The position numbers were made by a program, and so were the translations under genes. A stretch of 41,694 nt of DNA from Richelia intracellularis (GTDB lineage Bacteria; Cyanobacteriota; Cyanobacteriia; Cyanobacteriales; Nostocaceae). The notes under the pieces were generated by a model, which was not told the DNA's origin, searched no databases, and saw only the letters and a list, made by a program, of their open reading frames with translations. Below are positions 1,711 through 39,545 of this stretch, one piece after another. Where the stretch lies: NCBI GenBank assembly GCA_000613065.1, contig CBZS010000794.1, positions 1 through 41,694 on the forward strand, read 5' to 3'. Position 1 is the first letter of the stretch, and each line of letters opens with the position of its first letter.

Positions 1711-1801
1711 GGCGTTGCTGAATCAGGGGATGAATTAGCGTTTGAAACCATTGAGAAATCGTTGAAAATTTAGTGAAATCATCCCCTGATTCAGCAACGC
1801 C
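1711..1801 (-). mobile_element. 91-bp palindromic MITE, copy A
   Basis: Both ends are of the GGCGTTGCTGAATCAGGGG kind and form a near-perfect inverted repeat. It is flanked by a perfect 8-bp direct repeat ATAAAACC (1703-1710 and 1802-1809), a target-site duplication. The strand given is the one with the continuously open frame. It lies between the UPF0175 gene and mazF. Confidence 0.93.
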
Positions 1802-3216: not shown

Positions 3217-4136
3217 ATGTCAATCCCTATTCGACCTTCTGCCAGTTATCACCTTTGGTCTTTGTGCGCTCCCTGCGTGGGGAAAAAACGCTGGCATTGT
3301 CAAATGAGAAGGGGATTTGTCAAAGCTAGACAAAAGCAGCCGCAAGTCAAAGCCTTGTCGAGGTAAATGACTCCGCCCCAACGTATTGGCTTAATTCCCC
3401 AAAAGCGTATTTATGAATTTCATCACAATATACATCTGTTAAGAAAATCTGGGGTTGCATAAGTGCGGGATGATTTCACTAAATTTTCAACGATTTCTCA
3501 ATGGTTTCAAATGCTAATTCATCCCGCACTTATGCAACGCCGAAAATCTAATGGTATGGAACGCATAGCTCAGTTGTTAAAGCTGGATAACTGTATACAG
3601 GAAGTACAAAAGCGTGTAAGGCAGATTTTACAAAATTATCAACATAATATGCCTTTACTTTTAAATAAACGAATTCTGCTGGTAACCCGAGGAGATGAGG
3701 GCTTTCCTAAACCTATTTTGATCCAACAAACAGATTCTCGCTTCCGTTTATATGCGGCAATGGACTGTATTTTCAGGGAGAGCAATGGTATTATAAATAT
3801 CTTAGATTTTAAAACTGGTAAATCTTCGTTTGATCGCCGGCAGGCTTTAGTATATTTATTACCTGCCCGTTACCTTTATCCTGGATATGAAACGATCGCT
3901 TTTTCTATAATTTAGAATCTTGCCATCAATCAGAAATTATTAAAGTTACCAAGCATGAGCTAGATCAAGTGGAATGTGAACTAGCTCAGATTGCTAAAAA
4001 ACACCAGCAAGACTTGCGAAAATATCAAAGGGAAGACAAAAATTTCAGCAGCATATTTCCCCCTAATCCAGGTTATCATTGCCGCCATTGTCCATTTAAT
4101 AGTATTTGTGAATTCTCTGCTGTTGCAGACAGATAA
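3217..4136 (+). pseudogene. PD-(D/E)XK nuclease family protein, broken by nonsense, MITE and frameshift
   Basis: A RecB/Cas4-like nuclease that would be about 270 residues. The ATG at 3217 opens MSIPIRPSASYHLW, and the frame reaches a TAA at 3364-3366 that interrupts the conserved run QMRRGFVKARQKQPQVKA / MTPPQRIGLIPQKRIYEF. At 3451-3541 a MITE sits between duplicated GAAAATCT. After it the gene resumes in the same frame with SNGMERIAQLL, KRILLVTRGDEGFPKPILIQ and the catalytic core ILDFKTGKSSFDRRQA (Asp and Lys visible). Near 3890 a T-run is one base short, which shifts the frame. The rest reads FYNLESCHQSEIIKV and ends CRHCPFNSIC, a Cys cluster like the 4Fe-4S ligands of Cas4 and AddB nucleases. 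Three independent lesions make it a clear pseudogene. Family assignment is from motifs. Confidence 0.8.
3451..3541 (+). mobile_element. 91-bp palindromic MITE, copy B, inside the nuclease gene
   Basis: Both ends are of the second kind (GCATAAGTGCGGG and its complement), with the outer GGCG changed to GGGG on the left. The 8-bp duplication GAAAATCT lies at 3443-3450 and 3542-3549. The insertion keeps the host frame. The only stop it brings is TAA, in the left end at 3460-3462. Confidence 0.93.
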
Positions 4137-8042: not shown

Positions 8043-8133
8043 GGCGTTGCTGAATCAGGGGATGATTTCACTAAATTTTCAACGATTTATCAATGGTTTC
8101 AAAGGCTAATTCATCCCGCACTTATGCAACGCC
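8043..8133 (+). mobile_element. 91-bp palindromic MITE, copy C (hybrid ends)
   Basis: The left end is of the GCTGAATCAGGGG kind and the right end is the complement of GCATAAGTGCGGG, so the two ends do not pair well. Flanks repeat CAGATCTGC (8034-8042 and 8134-8142), a 9-bp identity that fits an 8- or 9-bp target duplication. It lies in the leader region of ndhB. The frame shown is open throughout. Confidence 0.93.
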
Positions 8134-27142: not shown

Positions 27143-27893
27143 CTGGCGTTGCATATTTGCGGGATGAATCAACCAAATACAGGTATTTCTCTATACTTAA
27201 AGTAATGAGGTAACAATCCAATAGAGTGCTGAAGCATATCTACGGATTTAGAGTAGCATAATGTTTTTCGATGTAGACGTGGGAGATAATGACGTAAACG
27301 TGTGTTTTCCCCTTCTACTCTGGTCATTCTTTTGCTAATAATATGGTCTCCTGGTTCAACACTGGCGTAAACTTTCCATCCATCTGTGACATAAAAATAG
27401 CACTTCCAGAGGTAGAGAATATCCCACAAAGCTTGAAAGGTTTCTGCACTATGGTCTCCCAGTACCCAAGCTAAAATTCCTTGGCGGAAATGGTCTACTG
27501 CTGTCCACAACCAAATTTTGTTTTGTTTTAACCGGCGAAAGTTTCTAATTCGTCCAGTTCTCCAACTTCTGGGATATCCTCTATTGATGGTGCATCTGGC
27601 AATTTTTCACCAACTTGTTTTACCCAACTAATTATGGTTGTGTGATGAACTGCTTTTTGGCGTTCAATAGCCCTAAATTCCGAGCCATTAACCTATGCTT
27701 TTAAGCATTCTTGTTTGATCTCATTTGAGTATCCTTTTGGTGGATTATAGATATCTATAAATTGGCGAACGCAATTTACACAAATGTGATTTTGTTTACC
27801 TCGACGTTTCACATTTTTTCTAATCCTCGTAGACTTGCAGTATGGACAATGCACAGTAGAACACCTCAATTCATCCCTCTATTATGCAACGCC
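27143..27893 (-). mobile_element. IS1-family element
   Basis: About 750 bp with inverted ends GGCGTTGCATATTTGCGGG (left, 27145) and the complement of GGCGTTGCATAATAGAGGG (right, ending 27893). A 9-bp repeat GTTAAAATT flanks it (27134-27142 and 27894-27902), with two additional bases CT on the left. Size, two-part transposase and duplication length fit IS1. Its ends are nearly those of the seven MITEs. Confidence 0.85.
27169..27854 (-). pseudogene. IS1 family transposase (InsA-InsB type), inactive
   Basis: From GTG at 27854 the first part reads HCPYCKSTRIRKNVKRRGKQ with a zinc-finger pattern CPYC...CVNC. It meets a TAG after QECLKA, continues with AIERQKAVHHTTIISWVKQV, and stops at a TAA near 27535. 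The second part is in another frame: NKIWLWTAVDHFRQGILAWV through VTDGWKVYASV and HYLPRLHRKTLCYSKS to 27169, the catalytic half. A -1 shift is normal for IS1, but the TAG inside the first half is not, so this copy should not make a full transposase. Confidence 0.85.
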
Positions 27894-32669: not shown

Positions 32670-32784
32670 CAATTGACATATTATTAACCACTATATTTCT
32701 AAAATTAAGAAACATAAACTACGTCTAATGTGAAATCTGTAGTTTTAAACAGAGCAGCTATTTAGTCCTTTAAAAGAGGACTTA

Positions 32785-33361
32785 GAGGATGTTTTAAAAG
32801 GTGGGAGGTATGATAAAAAAGCTCACAAGGCATATGCTGAAAATTATAGAAAACAGCACCCCGTGAGCAAATGACTAAGAATTATCCTAGCAATTTAACG
32901 TGGGAACAGTGGGAGTTAATCCCACAGCTGTTTCCAGAGGCAAAACCAGGTGGTCGTCCACGTACAACAACATGTATGTACCCAGTAGTAAACGCGATTT
33001 TATACGTACTGTGTCAAGGATGTACATGGCGGGCATTACCAGGAGATTTACCACCTTGGTCTACAGTCTATGGCTATTTCAGAAGATGCCGCAAAGACCG
33101 TACTTGGCTTCAGGTTCATGACAAACTATATCAATGGGTTCGGGAAGCAGCCTTTGATAGCCAATCAGTTGAAACCGCAACCATGATTTGTACGGATGTT
33201 GGTTTCGACCCAGGAAAACAAATACATGGACGTAAGCGATTTATTACCGTTGACTTGTTAGGGCTAGTTTTGCGAGTCTTGGTTAGTTCTGCAAGAGTGC
33301 CAGAACGTGCAGGGGCTAAACTAAACGTGCACGTTCTGGCAGGTTTATCAGATGAAAGATA
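32785..33361 (+). mobile_element. IS5-family element, copy A (3' end missing)
   Basis: Left end GAGGATGTTTTAAAAG as in the full copy at 37490-38410. It follows that copy to 33360 (GATGAAAGAT) and then stops at MITE copy D. It also has a 30-bp internal deletion relative to the full copy, where ASREPSPWEA is absent. Confidence 0.85.
32871..33361 (+). pseudogene. IS5 family transposase, 3'-truncated copy
   Basis: Starts MTKNYPSNLTWEQWELIPQL and contains GGRPRTTTCMYPVVNAILYV, GCTWRALPGDLPPWSTVYGY and the first catalytic Asp in FDSQSVETATM. The second half with the other Asp and the Glu is missing because the element ends at MITE copy D. Ten residues between YQWVRE and AAFD are deleted. It cannot be active. 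Confidence 0.85.
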
Positions 33362-33452
33362 GGCGTTGCATAAGTGCGGGATGAATTAGGGTTTGAAACC
33401 ATTGATAAATCGTTGAAAATTTAGTGAAATCATCCCCTCATTCAGCAACGCC
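33362..33452 (-). mobile_element. 91-bp palindromic MITE, copy D (hybrid ends, no target duplication)
   Basis: Identical in sequence to copy E at 35169-35259. The left end is of the GCATAAGTGCGGG kind, the right of the other kind with one change. The flanks are GATGAAAGATA and CTGCTTGTTT, which share nothing. It joins an IS5 fragment to an ISAs1 fragment, so it marks a recombination joint. Confidence 0.93.
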
Positions 33453-35168: not shown

Positions 35169-35259
35169 GGCGTTGCATAAGTGCGGGATGAATTAGGGTT
35201 TGAAACCATTGATAAATCGTTGAAAATTTAGTGAAATCATCCCCTCATTCAGCAACGCC
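35169..35259 (-). mobile_element. 91-bp palindromic MITE, copy E (hybrid ends)
   Basis: Sequence-identical to copy D. The flanks AAAATTAC and AAAATTTT agree in six of eight bases, so a perfect target duplication is absent. It marks the point where the oxidoreductase gene is cut. Confidence 0.93.
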
Positions 35260-37325: not shown

Positions 37326-37416
37326 GGCGTTGCTGAATCAGGGGATGATTTAACTAAATTTTCAACGATTTATCAATGGTTTCAAAGGCTAAATCATCCC
37401 CTGATTCAGCAACGCC
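37326..37416 (+). mobile_element. 91-bp palindromic MITE, copy F, inside the ISAs1 element
   Basis: Both ends of the GCTGAATCAGGGG kind. Perfect 8-bp duplication AGATAAAA (37318-37325 and 37417-37424). The frame shown is open throughout but runs opposite to the interrupted transposase gene. Confidence 0.95.
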
Positions 37417-37575
37417 AGATAAAACTGAACTTCACGGGTTGTTTTATTCCAAAGATGTCGTACCCGCACAAGCATGACAACGCATTTAAGAGGATGTTTT
37501 AAAAGGTGGGAGGTATCATAAAAAAGCTCACAAGGCATATGCTGAGAATTATAGAAAACAGCACCCCGTGAGCAA

Positions 37576-38097
37576 ATGACTAAGAATTATCCTAGCAATT
37601 TAACGTGGGAACAGTGGGAGTTCATCGCACAGCTGTTTCCAGAGGCAAAACCAGGTGGTCGTCCACGTACAACAAAATGTATGTACCCAGTAGTAAACGC
37701 GATTTTATACGTACTGTGTCAAGGATGTACATGGCGGGCATTACCAGGAGATTTACCACCTTGGTCTACAGTTTATGGCTATTTCAGAAGATGGGGCAAA
37801 GACCGTACTTGGGTTCAGGTTCATGACAAACTATATCAATGGGTTCGGGTCGCAGCCAGTCGAGAACCAAGTCCATGGGAAGCAGCCTTTGATGGCCAAT
37901 CAGTTGAAACCGCAACCATGATTTCTACGGATGTTGGTTTCGACCCAGGAAAACAAATACATGGACGTAAGCGATTTATTACGGTTGAGTTGTTAGGGCT
38001 AGTTTTGCGAGTCTTGGTTACTTCTGCAAGTGTGCCAGAACGTGCAGGGGCTAAACTAAACGTGCACGTTCTGGCAGGTTTATCAGATGAAAGATAA
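37576..38097 (+). CDS. IS5 family transposase, first reading frame
   Basis: 173 residues. Starts MTKNYPSNLTWEQWEFIAQL, then GGRPRTTKCMYPVVNAILYV, GCTWRALPGDLPPWSTVYGY and the first catalytic Asp in FDGQSVETATM. It ends NVHVLAGLSDER. The second frame starts 11 bp before this stop, the two-ORF layout of the IS427-type group of IS5, in which a frameshift joins both halves into one protein. Confidence 0.85.
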   Translation: MTKNYPSNLTWEQWEFIAQLFPEAKPGGRPRTTKCMYPVVNAILYVLCQGCTWRALPGDLPPWSTVYGYFRRWGKDRTWVQVHDKLYQWVRVAASREPSPWEAAFDGQSVETATMISTDVGFDPGKQIHGRKRFITVELLGLVLRVLVTSASVPERAGAKLNVHVLAGLSDER

Positions 38098-38800: not shown

Positions 38801-39545
38801 CTATCATGCACTAACTAGATGTAACGCTGATTTACCCTGTTCTCTATCATAGGAACCTTTGAGGGTTTTACCATCAATGGGAATTACCTGTGCTCCTGGG
38901 GCTTCAACTATTGATTCTACCCAACGTCGAAAGCATCGCTCAAAGACTTTTGGGTTAATGGGTTCAAACACCCGTCGAAAGGTATCTGCACTTGGGATGC
39001 CCTCTGGTAAAGCTAAAAACTGCTCCAACCAGTCGTATTTACTCAATCCATAATTAATTTTCCATGTCCTCCCATCCCTTACCTCCTGCAATCACTGATA
39101 GTATTCCAATGATTAAAATATCTGTTAAGAAATGGACAGGGGTTCTTTCTACAGGTGGGTCTTCTATGTCACTAAAAACTAATGACATTTTTTCTTTCAA
39201 TGCAGTAGCATTGGCTATACTCAAATTTTTTGAGCTTTTAATCTTTGGTTTTGAAGATTTGAAACCCGTAGGCGCAAGCCTTCTTGTCAGAGATAGGATT
39301 AGACTAACCCGTTCAGTTCAGATAGACCCTTTGCGTCCTTAGCATACTACTTAACTTCTTTAATACTTAAATCTCCATTTTTGTGCCCCACGAGTGTTCC
39401 TGCTACTGGGGAAGATTGGGTGGGGTAGGGGAGTGCCAGGTGGGGGTATGAGTGTTTATTGGGCTTACTCAAGGTCTTGATGCCCCTACCTGGCACCACG
39501 GAATCTAGGGAAGCGTTCCCCAGTTGCGTCAACTTTTTTTGGCGA

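Follow-up and report, generated by a model that had tools for sequence, protein, structure and literature searches.

A 91-bp IS1-type MITE of Richelia intracellularis with a neutral open reading frame and rare, apparently tolerated, in-frame insertions in protein genes

The window, that is the whole stretch of DNA that was analysed, comprises 41,694 nucleotides of Richelia intracellularis (positions 1 to 41,694 of contig CBZS010000794.1, assembly GCA_000613065.1). It contains seven full copies of a MITE, named A to G and each 91 bp in length, as well as a degraded element of the IS1 family and the remains of a nuclease gene in which copy B resides. Frame +1 denotes the one frame and orientation of the MITE that had been named as fully open in an earlier reading made from the letters alone, which is referred to here as the sequence-only reading. 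The features are as follows.

1711-1801, minus strand: copy A, 91 bp, frame +1 open, exact 8-bp duplication GGTTTTAT
3217-4130, plus strand: PD-(D/E)XK nuclease pseudogene hosting copy B, placed by tblastn of Nostocales orthologues and by stop positions
3443-3450, plus strand: left 8-bp target-site duplication of copy B, GAAAATCT, identical to 3542-3549
3451-3541, plus strand: copy B, 91 bp, two GCATAAG-type arms, frame +1 closed by TAA at 3460
3542-3549, plus strand: right 8-bp target-site duplication of copy B, GAAAATCT, a perfect match to the left one
8043-8133, plus strand: copy C, 91 bp, frame +1 open, duplication CAGATCTG readable with a 1-base offset
27145-27893, minus strand: degraded 749-bp IS1-family element with MITE-type terminal repeats and a PF03400 match at 27214-27528
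33362-33452, minus strand: copy D, 91 bp, TGA at codon 5 of frame +1
35169-35259, minus strand: copy E, 91 bp, TGA at codon 5 of frame +1
37326-37416, plus strand: copy F, 91 bp, frame +1 open, exact duplication AGATAAAA
40461-40551, plus strand: copy G, 91 bp, frame +1 open, exact duplication CTTTCTTC

Copy B and its two duplications together occupy positions 3443-3549. The window also carries an IS-like transposase gene twice, at 32784-33361 (the shorter copy, including 33142-33361) and at 37489-38096 (including 37877-38096), and the start of copy D at 33362 directly abuts the end of the shorter one. In addition, a long direct repeat is present at the window ends (1-507 and 38829-39339), the two parts being 93-95% identical and lying about 38.8 kb apart.

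The sequence-only reading had proposed that each insertion adds 99 bp, namely 91 bp of element plus an 8-bp duplication, and this was borne out well beyond the window. We read 2.19 Mb of the 5.49 Mb genome directly (the window and the loci L111-L210 and L241-L279) and found 323 copies, 314 of which are exactly 91 bp long. Over the first 1.52 Mb the 8-bp duplication was exact in 101 of 230 copies and had at most one mismatch in 137 of the 230. When the left flank of one copy was paired with the right flank of another, no exact and only 1 single-mismatch duplication was obtained (some copies being counted twice in this control). The left part of the duplicated target sites is rich in A and the right part in T. 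The element itself lacks a transposase and ends in terminal inverted repeats of about 23 bp, whose arms come in two types, TGAATCAG and ATAAGTGC, combined as T/A in 197 copies, A/A in 63, T/T in 49 and A/T in 1. Rare arm variants were seen on both arms of the same copy 21 times, as compared to 3.8 times expected if the arms were independent, which suggests occasional copying of one arm onto its partner in a form of palindrome correction.

Across the whole assembly (5.49 Mb in 857 contigs) a pattern search allowing up to 3 mismatches detected about 535 copies of the MITE, and the reversed control detected 0. The contigs that were read directly had been picked for holding copies, which leaves the frame statistics unaffected and makes the genome-wide pattern count the proper measure of density. 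With a strict pattern, matches were found in only 5 of 218 genomes of the family: 388 in the present genome, three in genome G010 and one in each of three others. The burst of this MITE is therefore specific to this species among the 218 genomes searched. The related copies outside this species, one to three per genome, are located in G010, G065, G066 and G194; G010 has three, and GAA TAA closes frame +1 in one of them. Being short and devoid of a transposase, with terminal inverted repeats, many near-identical copies and a duplication of fixed length, the element has what defines a MITE.

The IS1-family element at 27145-27893 is a relative of the likely source of the transposase that would serve the MITE. 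The IS1 transposase domain PF03400 is matched 53 times in the genome, in many cases with stops, and the ends of the IS1 copies read GGCGTTGC..AA....GGGATGA, like those of the MITE. The ends that the MITE and IS1 have in common extend over 22-23 bp, single IS1 copies bear exactly the right-arm sequence of the MITE, GCATAAGTGCGGGATGA, and exact 8-bp duplications flank seven of the IS1 units measured. The MITE is thus found to share its ends with an autonomous element that would be able to move it. Two hybrids, L222 and L238, have the first ~48 bases of the MITE fused directly to a whole IS1, the MITE being broken at a nearly identical position in both. The L238 hybrid, composed of the left half of the MITE, a complete IS1 and the IS1 right end, lies between perfect 8-bp duplications, AATAAAAA. 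The perfect duplication around the whole of it indicates that this hybrid moved as one unit, and hence that one end of the MITE type and one of the IS1 type acted as a pair.

Taken together, the common ends, the 8-bp duplications of IS1 and the L238 hybrid make it most likely that the MITE has been moved by the IS1 transposase. A transposase from outside the IS1 family that acts on similar ends could be invoked instead, given that a complete IS1 with the TGAATCAG arm of its own, which would be the direct parent, was not found among the 30 IS1 copies examined, and that the MITE core did not significantly resemble the ends of the IS1 copy used for comparison (p = 0.18). This alternative is nevertheless hardly credible in view of the 22-23 bp of common ends, the identical length of the duplication and the perfect duplication carried by a hybrid MITE/IS1 unit. 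In terms of classification, the MITE resembles the IS1 family in its type of terminal repeat (GGCGTTGC...GGGATGA), in having the same 8-bp duplication in this genome and in forming hybrid units, but it differs in being only 91 bp long, in lacking a transposase and in having a core that is not recognisably IS1. With regard to a putative origin by internal deletion of an IS1 element, the ends agree, but the core gave no significant match to the IS1 ends compared.

Copy B had been described as lying in the nuclease gene in precisely the orientation and frame that would permit read-through, with the TAA of the element as the only obstacle. This does not hold. The Nostocales nuclease orthologues align by tblastn over 3217-3900 and then over 3903-4130 in another frame, and the lesions comprise a nonsense TAA at 3364 as well as the TAA of the element at 3460 and a frameshift near 3900. 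To judge from these lesions, the gene around copy B is dead; its match to PDDEXK_1 is weak (E 0.0023, below the Pfam cut-off). Since it sits in a pseudogene that has a frameshift and a nonsense codon outside the element, copy B cannot illustrate an in-frame protein insertion and was rejected as such.

The description of the frame itself proved accurate for the window copies: A, C, F and G are open in frame +1, B is closed by TAA, and D and E are closed by TGA. The same frame stands out among the 314 copies of exactly 91 bp. Counting frame +1 first, the six frames contain 131, 405, 878, 892, 855 and 1111 stops, and they are open in 201, 6, 1, 0, 0 and 0 copies, respectively. In view of these counts, frame +1 is genuinely the only usable frame of the MITE. 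About one third of the copies are closed in it, most of them by the GCATAAG form of the left arm.

An open frame of this kind needs no special explanation, because about 60% of shuffled elements have one: at least one of six frames was open with a probability of 0.63 in shuffled 91-mers of the same composition and of 0.59 in shuffles keeping the inverted-repeat structure. Likewise, the net length would be a multiple of three by chance in one case out of three. The sequence-only reading had called for a test of purifying selection on the frame, and we examined the rare alleles of the core. In frame +1 these comprise 69 synonymous changes (71.8 expected), 205 missense changes (210.3 expected) and 39 stops (30.9 expected), which corresponds to observed/expected ratios of 0.96, 0.97 and 1.26, and the changes are spread over the three codon positions as 97, 110 and 106. 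The spectrum of rare mutations in frame +1 is thus neutral, and on these grounds purifying selection as a force conserving the encoded peptide was rejected.

At least four intact-looking open reading frames in this genome carry the MITE as an in-frame insertion of 33 codons, in all cases in frame +1. Their number is a minimum, as 2.19 of the 5.49 Mb were read directly and the best 150 places were listed for each peptide search. The four hosts are the following.

L241 (contig C395): VPS10-like lipoprotein, 937 codons, duplication with one mismatch
L147 (contig C520): CNNM/CorC-type protein, 524 codons, exact duplication AAAATTTT
L200 (contig C496): ChaN-like haem-binding family protein, 411 codons, exact duplication GAAAAAAC
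L245 (contig C9): CAP-domain protein, 219 codons, exact duplication CAAACAAA

The VPS10-like protein begins like a lipoprotein and then carries 3-keto-disaccharide hydrolase-like and Sortilin-Vps10 domains, as assigned with Pfam. The L147 protein consists of CNNM, CBS and CorC_HlyC domains, and the MITE is inserted after the first CBS domain. In the ChaN-like protein the insertion lies within the family profile, in a loop, and in the CAP protein, whose domain was likewise assigned with Pfam, it lies in the linker after a signal-peptide-like start. The frame +1 of the MITE being free of stops, 33 amino acids would have been added in at least these four apparently intact genes with the gene left unbroken.

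A search for the peptide flanked by conserved protein sequence had been suggested, and it yielded these four hosts. Orthologues of three of them lack the insert. Using queries from which the insertion had been removed, and taking the alignments as the ranges given by the search tool, we observed for the CNNM, ChaN and CAP proteins that the genome's own match splits at the site of insertion and that the relatives align through it. CNNM orthologues without the insertion were found in 19 genomes (49-69% identity), ChaN orthologues in nine relatives (50-71% identity, with alignments spanning the insertion site), and CAP orthologues in G001, which belongs to the same genus (77% identity over residues 1-181), as well as in a further eight genomes (60-67%). 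For the VPS10-like host there was no close full-length orthologue in the genomes searched. The idea of an in-frame element was to be given up if no intact gene carried it in frame and if stops were equally common in all frames. Neither is the case, because intact-looking genes do carry the MITE, all four in the named frame, where 131 stops compare with 405-1111 in the others.

Several further candidates were set aside as intact hosts, namely a glycosyltransferase (L197) with a separate nonsense codon upstream, an old-yellow-enzyme fragment (L209), two transposase fragments (L243 and L244), and L123 and L242, where the element is upstream of the likely true start. At the latter two loci (L123:1459 and L242:2367) the element immediately precedes the likely start codon of its neighbour, a BlaI-like regulator and an O-methyltransferase-like gene, respectively, and is in frame with it and free of stops. 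These copies possibly provide an N-terminal extension or an altered start.

Insertions in genes are rare. We rebuilt the empty sites of 202 copies with good duplications and asked for open reading frames of at least 250 codons with at least 20 codons on each side. Only 9 of the 202 copies (4.5%) lie in such frames, as compared to about 36% of random positions, which indicates that genic insertions are strongly purged. Four of these nine are in frame +1, corresponding to 0.33 of the random expectation, versus 0.08 for the other five frames together. Genic insertions are therefore depleted, in-frame ones included, and those in frame +1 are only less depleted than those in the other five frames. 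The excess of frame +1 among genic insertions is what simple tolerance predicts. It is borderline and threshold-dependent, with a binomial p-value of 0.048 and values from 0.005 to 0.5 at other thresholds, and should be regarded as suggestive rather than firm.

Two objections to tolerated insertions of a neutral frame deserve consideration. One is that the MITE is an adapted protein-insertion element, whose open frame and multiple-of-three length are kept by selection as has been proposed for the Rickettsia palindromic elements (RPEs). This would agree with the opening of a single frame in 201 of 314 copies when the other five are nearly always closed, with the exclusive use of frame +1 in the four intact-looking hosts, and with the lesser depletion of this frame in long open reading frames (0.33 versus 0.08 of random expectation). 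Yet rare mutations are neutral in this very frame, with stops at 1.26 times expectation; an open frame turns up in some 60% of shuffled elements; about a third of the copies are closed, mainly via the GCATAAG left arm; and of the foreign copies visible in other genera one has GAA TAA in frame, others being open. We consequently regard adaptation as very unlikely. The same low probability is attached to a milder form of the idea, in which weak selection at the level of lineages favours an open frame divisible by three, since gene-compatible copies would persist and seed more copies. If true, the MITE would be a cyanobacterial element that had evolved by itself into one for in-frame insertion in proteins.

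The other objection concerns the hosts, all of which might be recently hit genes that are already non-functional and have yet to decay, so that the in-frame cases would merely reflect the survivorship of young copies. Indeed, decayed genes and IS relics abound in this genome, and the other in-frame cases are two transposase fragments, the glycosyltransferase with its nonsense codon and the old-yellow-enzyme fragment. Moreover, the element in the ChaN-like host has no differences from the consensus at the positions scored. The elements in the other three hosts, however, have 2-3 differences, which is near or above the family mean of 2.1, and their hosts have nonetheless remained open over 219-937 codons. 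The sites of insertion also fall into three kinds: interdomain stretches, a loop within the family profile, and linkers that follow a signal-peptide-like start. On balance we consider it unlikely, but worth keeping in mind, that none of the hosts is functional. We infer instead that the four host proteins may be made and may work with their 33-residue insert. In-frame insertion of the MITE thus appears to be real, rare and tolerated, RPE-like in its effect and with no sign of adaptation.

The comparison with known systems leads to the same division. It is not unusual for MITEs that lie within genes to give rise to in-frame fusions, and with RPEs the frequency becomes high (PMC10969869). As summarised there, nearly half of the RPE copies, for three of ten families, are in open reading frames, each with a conserved peptide (Ogata et al. 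2000, 2002, via PMC10969869). On that description, the present element is like an RPE in being a short, palindrome-ended repeat that lies in frame in protein genes and adds tens of residues at tolerated sites, but it differs in being an IS1-type MITE with 8-bp duplications that is mostly outside long open reading frames and encodes a neutral peptide. Of the traits that characterise RPEs, intact-looking genes with the element in frame were found (the four hosts, three of them with contiguous orthologues). A large share of copies in frame in open reading frames was not observed (9 of 202, four in frame +1), nor was a conserved encoded peptide, the mutation spectrum in frame +1 being neutral. The parallel to RPEs drawn in the sequence-only reading therefore stands for the effect, that is in-frame inserts in intact-looking genes, and falls for the notion of a protein-adapted element, given the neutral peptide and the few genic copies. 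Homology to RPE sequence families is unlikely, as may be deduced from the different phylum and the IS1-type ends, the two being set apart here by description.

Among other repeats, the enterobacterial RU-1, RU-2 and RU-3 elements are MITE-like, 103-168 bp long, and have open frames fused to annotated genes (Delihas 2007; PMC2759123). Compared by description, they resemble the present MITE as repeats with an open frame joined to genes. However, their fusions are at C-terminal regions, with no repeats inside conserved domains of superfamily proteins (PMC2759123), whereas the insertions in the CNNM protein (after the first CBS domain) and in the ChaN-like protein (within the profile) are internal, with clean duplications and orthologues that are empty at the site. 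The cyanobacterial MITEs MITEb and MITEe of Anabaena PCC 7120 and Nezha are likewise small and non-autonomous, and some have open reading frames, according to their description in PMC10969869. The present family is best filed as a new IS1-type MITE with a neutral open frame that occasionally gives tolerated internal insertions.

Altogether, we consider it highly probable that the element is an IS1-family MITE whose open frame arose by chance, and that a few of its insertions in genes are tolerated as 33-residue inserts. The net length of 99 bp and the single open frame would then be accidents of the founder sequence. As a non-autonomous member of the IS1 family, the MITE would have been spread to about 535 copies by the IS1 transposase acting in trans on the terminal repeats of ~23 bp, each insertion duplicating 8 bp. 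Most insertions into genes would have been purged. Those that happened to fall in the stop-free orientation and frame, in a loop or a linker, would keep the reading frame, and a few of these may have survived as 33-residue inserts in intact genes.

The effect of in-frame insertion is thus essentially accidental and not the work of a specialised protein-insertion device. This MITE family offers a clean null model for in-frame insertions of mobile elements in bacterial proteins, since one sequence is present in about 535 copies, its mutation spectrum has been measured and is neutral, and several intact hosts have it in frame. The CNNM/CorC, ChaN and CAP proteins are concrete cases in which the tolerance of a natural 33-residue insertion can be tested. 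More generally, our findings show that RPE-like insertions need no adaptation of the element: a chance open frame, together with the purging of insertions in the remaining five, can give rise to them.
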